Below are positions 12,683 to 16,356 of a DNA stretch of 40,164 bases, in pieces. The translations under genes were made by a program, and so were the position numbers. The notes beneath the pieces are model-generated. The model had not been told where the DNA came from and searched no databases. It worked only from the letters and a program-made list of their open reading frames with translations. The stretch's first letter is position 1. Each line of letters begins with the position of its first letter. Source of the DNA: a bacterium (lineage in GTDB: Bacteria > SM23-31 > JAUVVT01); contig JAUWXV010000004.1 in assembly GCA_030616165.1 (NCBI GenBank), forward strand, positions 1 through 40,164, given 5' to 3'.

Positions 12683-13251
12683 ATTGTCTGGTAATGTTAA
12701 TTGTATTGTTATGAGTTATTTAATGGTATAGTATTAAATTTCCTGTAAAAATAGATATGAAAATGGCGCATCTCCTTTTAAATTATAATCAAAAAACTGA
12801 AAATTATTAACAGAAAGAAAAGGACAACACAATAAGTAAAAAGTTAACACATTCAGAAAGAATAAGCAAGTAAATTTCTAAACTTTTAAAGTATGGAGCC
12901 GAAGAAGAAGAATTTATGAATATTTTTATTAAAGTGTGTGGAGTTTACAAGTCAAATAATATATTTTAATATATATGGTTATCCGGATTTTTTGATTAAA
13001 AGGCAAAATTAATTTTTTAAAGTTGCAAATATAATATAAAATAGCAATAATTTCAAAAGCCGCAGTTGAATCAAATAACTGCGGTTTTTTTATTTTTTGA
13101 TTTGATTTGATATGATAATTTGTTATATTTAAAAATAATAATAGAGTTTATTTAACTGAAAAAAAATTAATTATCAAATTCCATTAAATTTATATTTTTG
13201 ATAATTTAGTTTTAAATCTTTATATAAATATTATATTTAGGACTGTAAATT
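12683..13251. other. 569-base AT-rich gap with a small decayed reading frame
   Basis: No intact gene is seen. A frame at 12874-12969 reads ISKLLKYGAEEEEFMNIF and continues for 13 more codons to a TAA; just before it, after an in-frame TAA at 12871, the same frame reads KKLTHSERISK. This looks like a small relic of a protein gene but the family is not recognised. A plus-strand terminator follows at 13055-13092, so the region may produce a short transcript. The last 150 bases are nearly pure A/T and precede the TIGR04255 cassette. Confidence 0.4.
13055..13092 (+). terminator. Rho-independent terminator without an obvious upstream gene
   Basis: CCGCAGTT (13060-13067) pairs with AACTGCGG (13077-13084) around a nine-base loop, followed by eight T residues and preceded by four A residues that extend the stem. 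It has all parts of an intrinsic terminator for the plus strand, yet no intact plus-strand gene lies upstream. It may close a small RNA or belong to the decayed frame at 12874-12969. Confidence 0.75.
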
Positions 13252-13995
13252 ATGAATAAAAGATATAAAAATCCACCTATAGTAGAAGCTTTGTGTGAAT
13301 TTCAGTTTATTCCGGGACAACCCTGGGATTTAACAATTCCGGGTTTAATATACGAAAAAATAAAAGAAAAATTTCCAAATAAAAAGCAGCAACAAATGAT
13401 GCACATGCAATTTAAGCCTACAGATAAAGGTTTAGAACACAAACTCGAATCTGTTCCTCCAAGAATGCAATTTCTAAATAAAGATAAAACAATTTTAGTC
13501 CAGGTAGGTACAGATTTGTTGTCTATAAATCTTCTAAAACCATATACAACTTGGAATGAATTTAGACCTTTGATACTAAAAAATTTAAGAGTATATAGGA
13601 ACATTGCAAAACCCAAAGGGATTAAAAGATTGGGATTAAAGTATATAAATAAAATTAATATACCTAAAAAGACAATAGAATTAACTGAATATTTTAAATT
13701 TTATCCATATATACCAGAAGAATTACCCCAAATCAAAATAAATTTTAATATTAGAGTTGAAATTCCCTACGAAAAAAATAGAGACATTTTACTCTTGACT
13801 TTAGCCAGCACAACTCCTAGTAAAGAAGGTGAATTATCTATAATACTTGATTTGGATTATGTAATGATTATCCCTGAAAAAATAACTTTTAAAGATATAA
13901 TTAAATGGATTGATAAAGCTCATCATAATTTAGAAAATGCCTTTGAAGAGTGTATTACAGATAAAACCAGAATTTTATTTGAGGAGGTTAAATAA
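13252..13995 (+). CDS. TIGR04255 family protein
   Basis: A 247-residue protein starting NPPIVEALCEFQF (residues 7-19), the signature opening of the TIGR04255 family, which is scattered widely among bacteria and has no assigned function. Further family-like parts are MQFLNKDKTILVQVG, LGLKYINKINIP and the late helix IDKAHHNLENAFEECIT. There is no signal peptide or membrane segment, so it is cytosolic. The coding sequence is more AT-rich than its neighbours and its stop overlaps the next start in TAATG, indicating coupled translation. With the two genes that follow it forms a compact cassette that looks acquired. Sporadic distribution and pairing with a HEPN-like protein suggest a defence or toxin-antitoxin-like role; this is inference. 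Confidence 0.8.
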   Translation: MNKRYKNPPIVEALCEFQFIPGQPWDLTIPGLIYEKIKEKFPNKKQQQMMHMQFKPTDKGLEHKLESVPPRMQFLNKDKTILVQVGTDLLSINLLKPYTTWNEFRPLILKNLRVYRNIAKPKGIKRLGLKYINKINIPKKTIELTEYFKFYPYIPEELPQIKINFNIRVEIPYEKNRDILLLTLASTTPSKEGELSIILDLDYVMIIPEKITFKDIIKWIDKAHHNLENAFEECITDKTRILFEEVK

Positions 13996-14516
13996 TGTTA
14001 CATACTTCAACTTTAAAAACATTGGAACCCCCTACTACTAATTATATTAATTTACCATTATTAGTTGGTAATTTTGATTCAAAAGAATCCTCATTAAAAA
14101 ATCTTTTATATGATATAAAAAGATGTTATACAGATAAAATAACAGCTGAACCTAATATTATTGGAGAATCGTCTATTTTCTTTTCGATTCAAAAACATAT
14201 AGATTTATTAGAAAATTATTATATTATTGATAATTATGATGAAATTTTAATGTTTTTATTGACGAATGATTTTCTTATTAATATTCTTTTAGAAGCTACA
14301 CAACCGATTAGAAAGGTATTTGGAGAATCTATAAAAATTCATCTTAACCTTCATAGTGATCCCGAAGAAAATTATGATGAACTTTTTATTGTAATAAAAA
14401 ATCGTTTTAATCCCAATAAGGCTTTAAAATGTATGGATGAGTTAGACCTAATTTGGTTTGACAAAATTGACAATAACACTCAGGGAAAATTAAATATCAT
14501 AGAAGAACCATTATGA
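13995..14516 (+). CDS. Uncharacterised protein, middle gene of the TIGR04255/HEPN cassette
   Basis: A 173-residue acidic, soluble protein that I cannot assign to a named family. It has a mixed alpha/beta look: a helical part around residues 75-105 (DEILMFLLTNDFLINILLEA) followed by IKIHLNLHSDPEENYDELFI, a beta strand with an acidic loop, and then FNPNKALKCMDELDLIWF near the C-terminus. No signal peptide, transmembrane segment or catalytic motif is evident. The ATG overlaps the TIGR04255 stop by one base and its own TGA overlaps the ATG of the HEPN-like gene by four bases (ATGA), so the three proteins are probably made together in fixed ratio. It might be an adaptor or antitoxin for the HEPN-like protein. 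Confidence 0.7.
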   Translation: MLHTSTLKTLEPPTTNYINLPLLVGNFDSKESSLKNLLYDIKRCYTDKITAEPNIIGESSIFFSIQKHIDLLENYYIIDNYDEILMFLLTNDFLINILLEATQPIRKVFGESIKIHLNLHSDPEENYDELFIVIKNRFNPNKALKCMDELDLIWFDKIDNNTQGKLNIIEEPL

Positions 14517-14899
14517 CTTTTGATTGGTTTTTTTATATAAAATTAGCGAATGAATTAATAAATTTTCAAAAAACCTCCTATATAAAAGAAGCATATTTTA
14601 GAACCTCTATAAGCCGCTCATATTATGGAGCTTTTTGCTTATCAAGAAATTTTTTAGAAAGAAAAGGCATTTCACTAATTCCTAAAGACAAAAGTGTCCA
14701 TCAATTTGTGATTGAGAAATACAGATATTCTAATAATAGCATTGAAAGAGAAATTGGTAAAAAACTTGATCGTTTAAGAAAAGAACGTAATGATTCAGAT
14801 TATAATGATAGAAAGAAAGTAAAATCTCAAAATGCAGTTCGAGCATACAACAAATCTAAAAAAATTTTAAAACTATTGAAAAATATTAAGGCTATTTAA
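14513..14899 (+). CDS. HEPN-like small protein
   Basis: A 128-residue all-helical protein. RTSISRSYYGAFCLSRNFLE (about 30-49) resembles the second helix of HEPN domains, and LRKERNDSDYND (about 88-99) aligns with their R-x4-6-H region. The Arg-Asn pair (92-93) is present, but the expected His is replaced by Tyr97, as in some RN..DY-type HEPN proteins. HEPN proteins are often RNases in toxin-antitoxin and phage defence systems; forms without the His may be non-catalytic or use a changed active site. The gene overlaps the preceding one by four bases and ends the cassette. The fold call is by pattern only and is moderately secure; the function is inferred. Confidence 0.65.
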   Translation: MTFDWFFYIKLANELINFQKTSYIKEAYFRTSISRSYYGAFCLSRNFLERKGISLIPKDKSVHQFVIEKYRYSNNSIEREIGKKLDRLRKERNDSDYNDRKKVKSQNAVRAYNKSKKILKLLKNIKAI

Positions 14900-14967
14900 C
14901 AAGTTTAGTATTATAAAAGTTTTACTTTTAATTAATTTTTGTAAATTTTAAAGTCTGGAGATTAGAC

Positions 14968-16356
14968 ATGAAAACCATAACCAGAAGGGAGTTTATAAGG
15001 TACTCATCTGCGGGTATATTGAGTTCGGCTGTTGGGCTGGGTCTTCATTCTTGCGCTAAAAAAGAAGCAGAACGACCGAACTTTGTTTTTTTTATGACCG
15101 ATGACCAGAGATGGGATGGTATGAGTTGTGCCGGAAATCAAATACTCAAAACGCCCAATATGGACAGAATAACCCAGGAGGGTGTTAGGTTTGAGAATAT
15201 GTTTGTTACAACATCTTTGTGCAGTCCAAGCAGGGCATCTTTTTTGACCGGAAAATATGTTCACAATCACGGCATCAGACGGAATGGAATGATGCTTCCC
15301 ATGGAAGAGAAGACTTTTCTGGAAATGTTAAAAGATGAAGGATATGAAACAGCATTCGTAGGGAAATGGCATATGCAGGACTCAGGAAGGAACAGAGACT
15401 TCGATTATTACTTTGGTTTTAGAGGGCAGGGCAGATACTATAATCCCGTTATTGCTGAAAATGATGGCCCGGATATAGAATATACGGGGCACGTTACCGA
15501 TATATTGACAGACCATGCTATAAATTTTTTAAGAAGGGAGCATAATAAACCATTTTGTCTTCTTTTGTGGTATAAGGCGCCGCACAGGAGCTGGCTGGCG
15601 GCTGAACGTTTTCAGGATTTATACAAGGAAATTAAGATGCCCAAACCAGTTACATTTAACGACACTTACGAAGGAAAGCCAGATGCAGTTAAGAATGCTG
15701 ATATGAAAATTGGGGATTTCAAAGATGTTCCTGACCTTGATACCTTCCTTAAGAATTATTACAGGTGTCTTGTTGGTGTTGATGAAAATGTGGGTCGTGT
15801 GCTGAACATTCTTGACCAATTGGGATATTATGATAATACTGTTGTAATTTACAGTGGTGATAACGGATTTTTCCTTGGAGAGCACCACTTCTTTGATAAA
15901 CGGCTTATGTATGAAGAATCGATTCGAGTGCCGCTGCTTGTTCGTTATCCGAGAATGATTAAAATGGGGACAACAAACTCGGAGATGGTTTTAAATGTTG
16001 ATGTAGCACCGACAATTTTAAATCTTGCTAGTGCTCTGATACCGGAAACGATGGATGGAATGAATTTTAAACCTCTTTTAGAAGGAAAGAAAATAGAATG
16101 GAGAGAAGATTTCTTATATGAGTATTACGAATATCCTGGTGCTCATTCTGTTAGAAAGAACCGCGGTATCCGCACAAAAAGATGGAAATATATCCATTTT
16201 TTTGAAGAGCCTCAAGAGTTTGAACTTTACGATTTGCAGTATGACCCCAACGAGATACGTAATCTTATCAATGAACCAGTATATAAGAATATAGTGGTAT
16301 ATCTTAAAAATCGTATGACCTCACTGAGGAGAGAACTTAAAGACCCGGATTTATAA
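14968..16356 (+). CDS. Tat-exported sulfatase (Cys-type)
   Basis: A 462-residue arylsulfatase-family enzyme. TRREFIRYSSAGIL at the N-terminus is a twin-arginine signal and GLHSC (Cys29) fits a lipobox, so it is probably a Tat-exported lipoprotein. FFMTDDQRWDG gives the Asp pair for calcium, CSPSRASFLTGKY (Cys85) is the sulfatase signature in which the Cys becomes formylglycine, and VGKWHM, YSGDNGFFLGEHHFFDK and SIRVPLLVRYP complete the active site. Length and C-terminal layout (FELYDLQYDPNEIRNL) match sulfatases acting on sulfated polysaccharides. The radical SAM maturase needed to convert the Cys under anaerobic conditions follows 100 bases downstream, so this pair forms a functional unit. 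GGAGA precedes the ATG. Confidence 0.93.
   Translation: MKTITRREFIRYSSAGILSSAVGLGLHSCAKKEAERPNFVFFMTDDQRWDGMSCAGNQILKTPNMDRITQEGVRFENMFVTTSLCSPSRASFLTGKYVHNHGIRRNGMMLPMEEKTFLEMLKDEGYETAFVGKWHMQDSGRNRDFDYYFGFRGQGRYYNPVIAENDGPDIEYTGHVTDILTDHAINFLRREHNKPFCLLLWYKAPHRSWLAAERFQDLYKEIKMPKPVTFNDTYEGKPDAVKNADMKIGDFKDVPDLDTFLKNYYRCLVGVDENVGRVLNILDQLGYYDNTVVIYSGDNGFFLGEHHFFDKRLMYEESIRVPLLVRYPRMIKMGTTNSEMVLNVDVAPTILNLASALIPETMDGMNFKPLLEGKKIEWREDFLYEYYEYPGAHSVRKNRGIRTKRWKYIHFFEEPQEFELYDLQYDPNEIRNLINEPVYKNIVVYLKNRMTSLRRELKDPDL

Follow-up and report, generated by a model that had tools for sequence, protein, structure and literature searches.

The HEPN protein of retron-Kva2, a type IX retron (PDB 36ht), is held in a complex and freed on infection. 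It carries a Tyr-Tyr pair, a mid-chain His and an R-x3-D-Y stretch, and the H64A and R122A substitutions or a triple Tyr mutation abolish defence against T5 (PMC13405049). As partners it has a reverse transcriptase, msDNA and a winged-helix protein. In the HEPN/MNT (HepT/MntA) systems, a PF05168-type HEPN protein and a nucleotidyltransferase are encoded by a small overlapping gene pair that clusters with restriction-modification (R-M) operons. RnlA-RnlB (RNase LS) combines a HEPN RNase with an antitoxin, and some RNase LS proteins have a TBP-like domain in the same chain as a HEPN domain with the R-x4-6-H motif (PMC3710099). PrrC, a HEPN RNase with an ABC-ATPase domain, is encoded inside the type I R-M operon EcoprrI, where it serves as a second defence line. 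The linkage of HEPN with R-M as such was already described in 2013. New here are a HEPN partner family, its joint exchange with the HEPN protein, and an interchangeable front end.

The cassette under study consists of three ORFs, all on the + strand, read from the sequence at positions 13252-14899 of the window, by which we mean the whole stretch of 40,164 nucleotides that was analysed. Its features are as follows.

13055..13089, + strand: intrinsic-terminator-like hairpin upstream of the cassette (pattern scan)
13252..13995, + strand: gene 1, TIGR04255 family protein, 247 aa
13995..13995, + strand: 1-base stop/start overlap of genes 1 and 2, TAATG (sequence)
13995..14516, + strand: gene 2, unnamed HEPN partner, 173 aa
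14513..14516, + strand: 4-base overlap of genes 2 and 3, ATGA (sequence)
14513..14899, + strand: gene 3, HEPN-T (PF05168) protein, 128 aa

We propose that the cassette most likely comprises an RNA-cutting HEPN toxin, its dedicated partner and a sensor-like protein, which would probably make it an anti-virus or toxin-antitoxin system that had escaped recognition.

The first-pass annotation had described overlapping, AT-rich genes set between metabolic genes behind a terminator, and the sequence bears this out. Both overlaps are present. The cassette has a GC content of about 25% (0.245-0.248 over positions 13001-15000 versus mostly 0.30-0.45 elsewhere in the window), and its neighbours, identified by eye, are an 883-aa oxidoreductase (- strand), a sulfatase (+) and a radical SAM protein (+). 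Pattern scanning found three terminator-like hairpins in the region where 0.7 were expected. The strong hairpin at 13055-13089 has no + strand gene closely upstream, and a short untranslated transcript may terminate there; an Rfam scan for small ncRNAs upstream of the cassette returned no family above its threshold. Three loci have a sulfatase gene next to the cassette or gene 2: it comes after in the window (14968-16356) and before in L016 and L019. We set this adjacency aside as a functional link, since it is likely a coincidence. No R-M or other defence genes lie near the window copy, and its own genome has no complete match to type III mod or res. The window copy is the stand-alone form of the module.

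Profile searches upheld the identities proposed earlier for the two outer genes and left the middle one as unrecognised as before. Gene 1 matched NCBIfam TIGR04255 at 148.8 bits (cut-off 30) and gene 3 matched Pfam HEPN (PF05168) at 34 bits, above the gathering score of 22, while gene 2 matched nothing in Pfam, NCBIfam or PADLOC. The cassette matched no known defence system strongly in PADLOC, where gene 1 was also without a match and gene 3 gave only weak ones (best E 0.001; HEPN_IX E 0.007). The locus is not a type IX retron: the neighbouring ORFs and Rfam revealed neither a reverse transcriptase nor an ncRNA or msDNA, nor a winged-helix protein, and the sequence match to the retron-Kva2 HEPN is weak (E ~0.005). 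It shares with HEPN/MNT the small overlapping pair, the type of HEPN and, in its relatives, the clustering with R-M operons, but gene 2 is no nucleotidyltransferase, having neither a Pfam match nor a fold match to one. Pfam scans of 50 gene 2 members gave no support to MNT, RnlB or another known antitoxin, and we rejected these assignments. The cassette also stands apart from RnlAB, as its proteins are separate and genes 1 and 2 have no Pfam RnlA or RnlB match. A PrrC-like location in or beside an R-M operon, not seen for the window copy, occurs in six relatives (L052, L053, L063, L065, L068 and L111), although these encode separate small proteins and mostly involve type III R-M.

The canonical R-x4-6-H motif is absent from gene 3, which carries Y37-Y38, H63 and R92-N-D-S-D96-Y97 and thus conforms to an alternative HEPN layout in which R-x3-D-Y and H63 stand in for it. 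Among about 78 aligned homologues, 77 of 78 retain H63, and the same count holds for R92, for D96 and for Y97; R35 is present in 79 of 79 counted. Because the scan patterns that retrieved these homologues included ISR[SGA]YYG, conservation of the residues it covers is biased, that of H63, R92, D96 and Y97 unbiased. In a profile alignment, H64 of retron-Kva2 falls on H63 and R122-GIV-DY on R92-NDS-DY, the latter stretch being below significance when taken alone. The absence of the usual motif might suggest a catalytically dead HEPN in an operon that is a regulatory or RNA-binding module. We regard this as highly improbable in view of the near-invariance of H63, R92, D96 and Y97, of the retron-Kva2 precedent (PMC13405049), and of a 2013 HEPN survey in which D substitutes for H in several PF05168 proteins that carry a conserved His elsewhere (PMC3710099). 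The earlier description of RN..DY in place of His was correct as to the motif, which nevertheless belongs to a conserved family layout with H63 and not to a degenerate or decayed site. Sharing its layout with the mutationally tested retron-Kva2 HEPN, and being conserved, gene 3 is predicted to be an active RNase. Judging by the alignments, proteins that combine R-x3-D-Y with an upstream His make up a conserved HEPN class, one that R-x4-6-H searches overlook.

To what extent the cassette is a unit can be read from its relatives. A gene 2 search of 386 mostly unrelated genomes gave 17 matches, and at these loci, chosen by gene 2, HEPN follows in 13 of 17 places. TIGR04255, gene 2 and HEPN occur in the same order in L002, L007, L011, L013, L014, L015 and L017; gene 2 and HEPN occur without TIGR04255 in L008, L009, L012 and L016; and L010 is a cassette copy with interrupted genes. 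Two further cassettes (L024, L040) came from the TIGR04255 search. We then used HEPN as the starting point, scanning 84,980 species, each represented by one genome, with four HEPN sequences; the pattern was taken from their 4-row alignment, a 12-row alignment being too varied for a pattern scan. Of the resulting 60 loci, selected without regard to gene 2 or neighbours, 53 have a gene 2 homologue, identified with iterated profiles, directly 5' of HEPN. TIGR04255 lies upstream of gene 2 in 25 of the 60, and in some the first position is taken by another gene, for example one for a TIR-like membrane protein. The commonest gene 2-HEPN junction is the 4-base overlap (38 of 71 junctions surveyed). 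Carriers belong to Nitrospirota, Caldisericota, Chloroflexota, Planctomycetota, Bacteroidota, Cyanobacteriota, Bacillota, Acidobacteriota and several archaea. Thus, the gene order recurs across distant bacterial and archaeal phyla, its conservation goes far beyond chance, and the homologues are far from being rarely adjacent. The 173-residue protein, put forward earlier as an adaptor or antitoxin, is part of a real unit as a dedicated HEPN partner. The core unit is gene 2 plus gene 3.

Gene 2 defines a new HEPN partner family without a Pfam entry. In its structural model, residues ~1-60 have low confidence and the C-terminal domain (~67-173) reaches a pLDDT of ~97, so that the N-terminus is probably disordered and the C-terminal part folded. 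A fold search of the PDB with this model gave no significant match, a PDB sequence search nothing useful, and protein searches in plasmids and phages no match. L086 (2240-5041) encodes an MmeI-like DNA methyltransferase that has a gene 2 domain joined to its C-terminal end, with HEPN following. More distant HEPN relatives from the same scan (L090, L103-L106, L109, L110) are without gene 2.

In the HEPN tree, phyla and types of first gene are interspersed, with 19 changes of the TIGR04255 label, of which only four are forced by well-supported forks; this mixing fits horizontal transfer and exchange. Two of the loci, L074 and L077, are nearly identical and come from one sediment sample, possibly through mis-binning. 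Plasmid pTB1 of Thermus brockianus, a cultured organism, carries a full cassette (L149, 9001-10692) near argonaute, VapC, methylase and cas6 genes; its HEPN gene (L149, 10303-10671) is missing from the record's gene table. In Gloeothece citriformis, two plasmids carry the two-gene form, and one of these plasmids is conjugative. Phage records and viral contigs, searched with limited sensitivity, yielded no copy of the cassette, and none of 11 matches from a HEPN pattern scan of viral contigs was confirmed. Tandem arrangements occur in Prochloron (L069, 2486-4906), in the order gene 2-HEPN-gene 2-HEPN-gene 2, and as two full cassettes in a Calditrichaeota MAG (L084, 7219-10450). L003 (1405-1917) looks like a decayed cassette: a natural internal deletion has brought the TIGR04255 N-terminus into one chain with the gene 2 C-terminal domain, and HEPN is absent.

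The minimal form on the Gloeothece plasmids, the tandem copies and the frequency of broken ones (L003, L008, L010) would suit a plain type II addiction module, in which gene 2 is the antitoxin, HEPN the toxin and TIGR04255 only an autoregulator, with no role against viruses. We consider such a module quite unlikely, as the R-M operons described below, with their embedded cassettes and exchanged partners, point to defence, as do the methyltransferase fusion in L086 and the TIR-like alternatives in first position.

Gene 1 is a clear member of a family that the gene 2-HEPN pair follows only in part. TIGR04255 was found in 50 of the same 386 genomes, and in the literature search, which covered few subscription journals, no paper found names it. 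The AlphaFold2 model of gene 1 has a pLDDT of 93.3, and the best Foldseek match in the PDB was TBP (probability 0.99-1.0, E 1.4e-4 to 1e-3), with a TM-score of only ~0.29. Viral TBPs were also listed in this fold comparison; a PDB sequence search with gene 1 gave nothing useful. With the reserve that the low TM-scores impose, gene 1 is predicted to be TBP-like. About half of the cassette relatives lack TIGR04255, which therefore cannot be essential to the pair of gene 2 and HEPN. Outside the cassette, another small gene lies tightly 3' of it in 12 of 17 loci, with unrelated overlapping partners, and it thus looks like a shared front end. Recurrent small partners at L026 and L028, L029 and L044, and L027 and L033 represent at least three unrelated, uncharacterised families. 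The first gene of the cassette is interchangeable, and TIGR04255 is one of several that fill this place.

An inhibitor or common scaffold might also show such overlaps with unrelated small partners, and the roles might then be reversed, with gene 2 an activator or substrate adaptor that joins HEPN to form the active enzyme and TIGR04255, or another first gene, restraining it. This arrangement seems to us unlikely. The gene 2-HEPN pair often occurs without TIGR04255, and something else would have to restrain the RNase there; a second argument against it comes from the R-M operons.

Enrichment beside defence genes had been suggested as a check on the defence role, and the surroundings of the relatives provide it. 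We compared the genes within 4 kb of cassettes with PADLOC models, 111 genes and then 137 more. Among the 111, the type III mod and res models had five matches each; among the 137, type IIG, HEC-01 and other defence models were matched. In contrast, 150 random control genes gave zero type III matches and a few to other defence families. Five loci, L052, L053, L063, L068 and L111 (a wider view of L009), have the cassette between mod and res of a type III R-M operon, and in L065 it sits just behind res. Eco57I/MmeI-type methyltransferases adjoin L077, L081 and L082. With 47 type III res genes in the 386 genomes, ~0.02 are expected near 53 loci; six loci were observed at type III R-M (Poisson 3e-14), three of these six operons being closely related and hence not all independent. 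The module is thus not confined to metabolic surroundings. In L053 the operon reads mod-TIGR04255-gene 2-HEPN-res, with 4-base overlaps up to HEPN, and L052 and L068 have the same order. In L063 a membrane protein, TIR-like by eye as in L064, replaces TIGR04255, and the TIR-like first gene of L009 has Pfam TIR/ThsB support. At L111 (6286-8408), mod and res enclose first an MNT-HEPN pair and then, next to it, the module, here made up of TIR-like, gene 2 and HEPN.

These operons also record exchange of the pair. Between L068 and L052, mod (86%), TIGR04255 (86%) and res (94%) are nearly identical, whereas gene 2 and HEPN share only 39% and 43% identity; the DNA is similar up to the end of TIGR04255 and again from res onward. 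Gene 2 and HEPN have therefore been swapped jointly, which is how a cognate pair should behave. That TIGR04255 stayed 86% conserved while the pair changed is the second argument against reversed roles. L063 and L068, with mod 78% and res 85% identical, have different first genes.

Taken together, the candidacy for defence or toxin-antitoxin function stands on a real conserved operon, a HEPN profile match and enrichment near defence genes; TIGR04255 as a fixed component does not. In our preferred explanation, to which we give moderate confidence, the cassette is a self-contained module of the toxin-antitoxin/abortive-infection kind: HEPN would be the RNase effector and gene 2 its cognate antitoxin or gate, both governed by a TBP-like sensor or adaptor. 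We infer that HEPN is a toxic RNase, that gene 2 inhibits it, that TIGR04255 is a sensor and that the module defends against phages. The RNase would need no metal and would work as a dimer, with H63 and R92 contributed by each chain and Y37-Y38 holding the RNA in position. The gene 2 product, made first and coupled through the ATGA overlap, would keep HEPN inactive, probably by binding the dimer, and its disordered N-terminus may be the switchable part. As an exchangeable front end, TIGR04255 would respond to a signal of infection, for which a nucleic-acid or protein ligand is the likeliest candidate, and then release or position the RNase. Where restriction fails, a module inside a type III R-M operon would probably serve as a suicidal back-up, like PrrC in EcoprrI. 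More tentatively, the immune architecture may be modular, with an exchangeable front end (TIGR04255 with a TBP-like fold, or a TIR-like membrane protein) joined to an exchangeable pair in a slot that also occurs inside type III and next to Eco57I/MmeI-type R-M genes; TIGR04255 would then be a general sensor for several unrelated effectors.

In conclusion, our study defines a new HEPN partner family and gives a testable role to TIGR04255, a widespread but uncharacterised family. With Thermus brockianus and its plasmid pTB1, the cassette has a cultured carrier. Furthermore, restriction operons gain an exchangeable slot for a predicted RNase.
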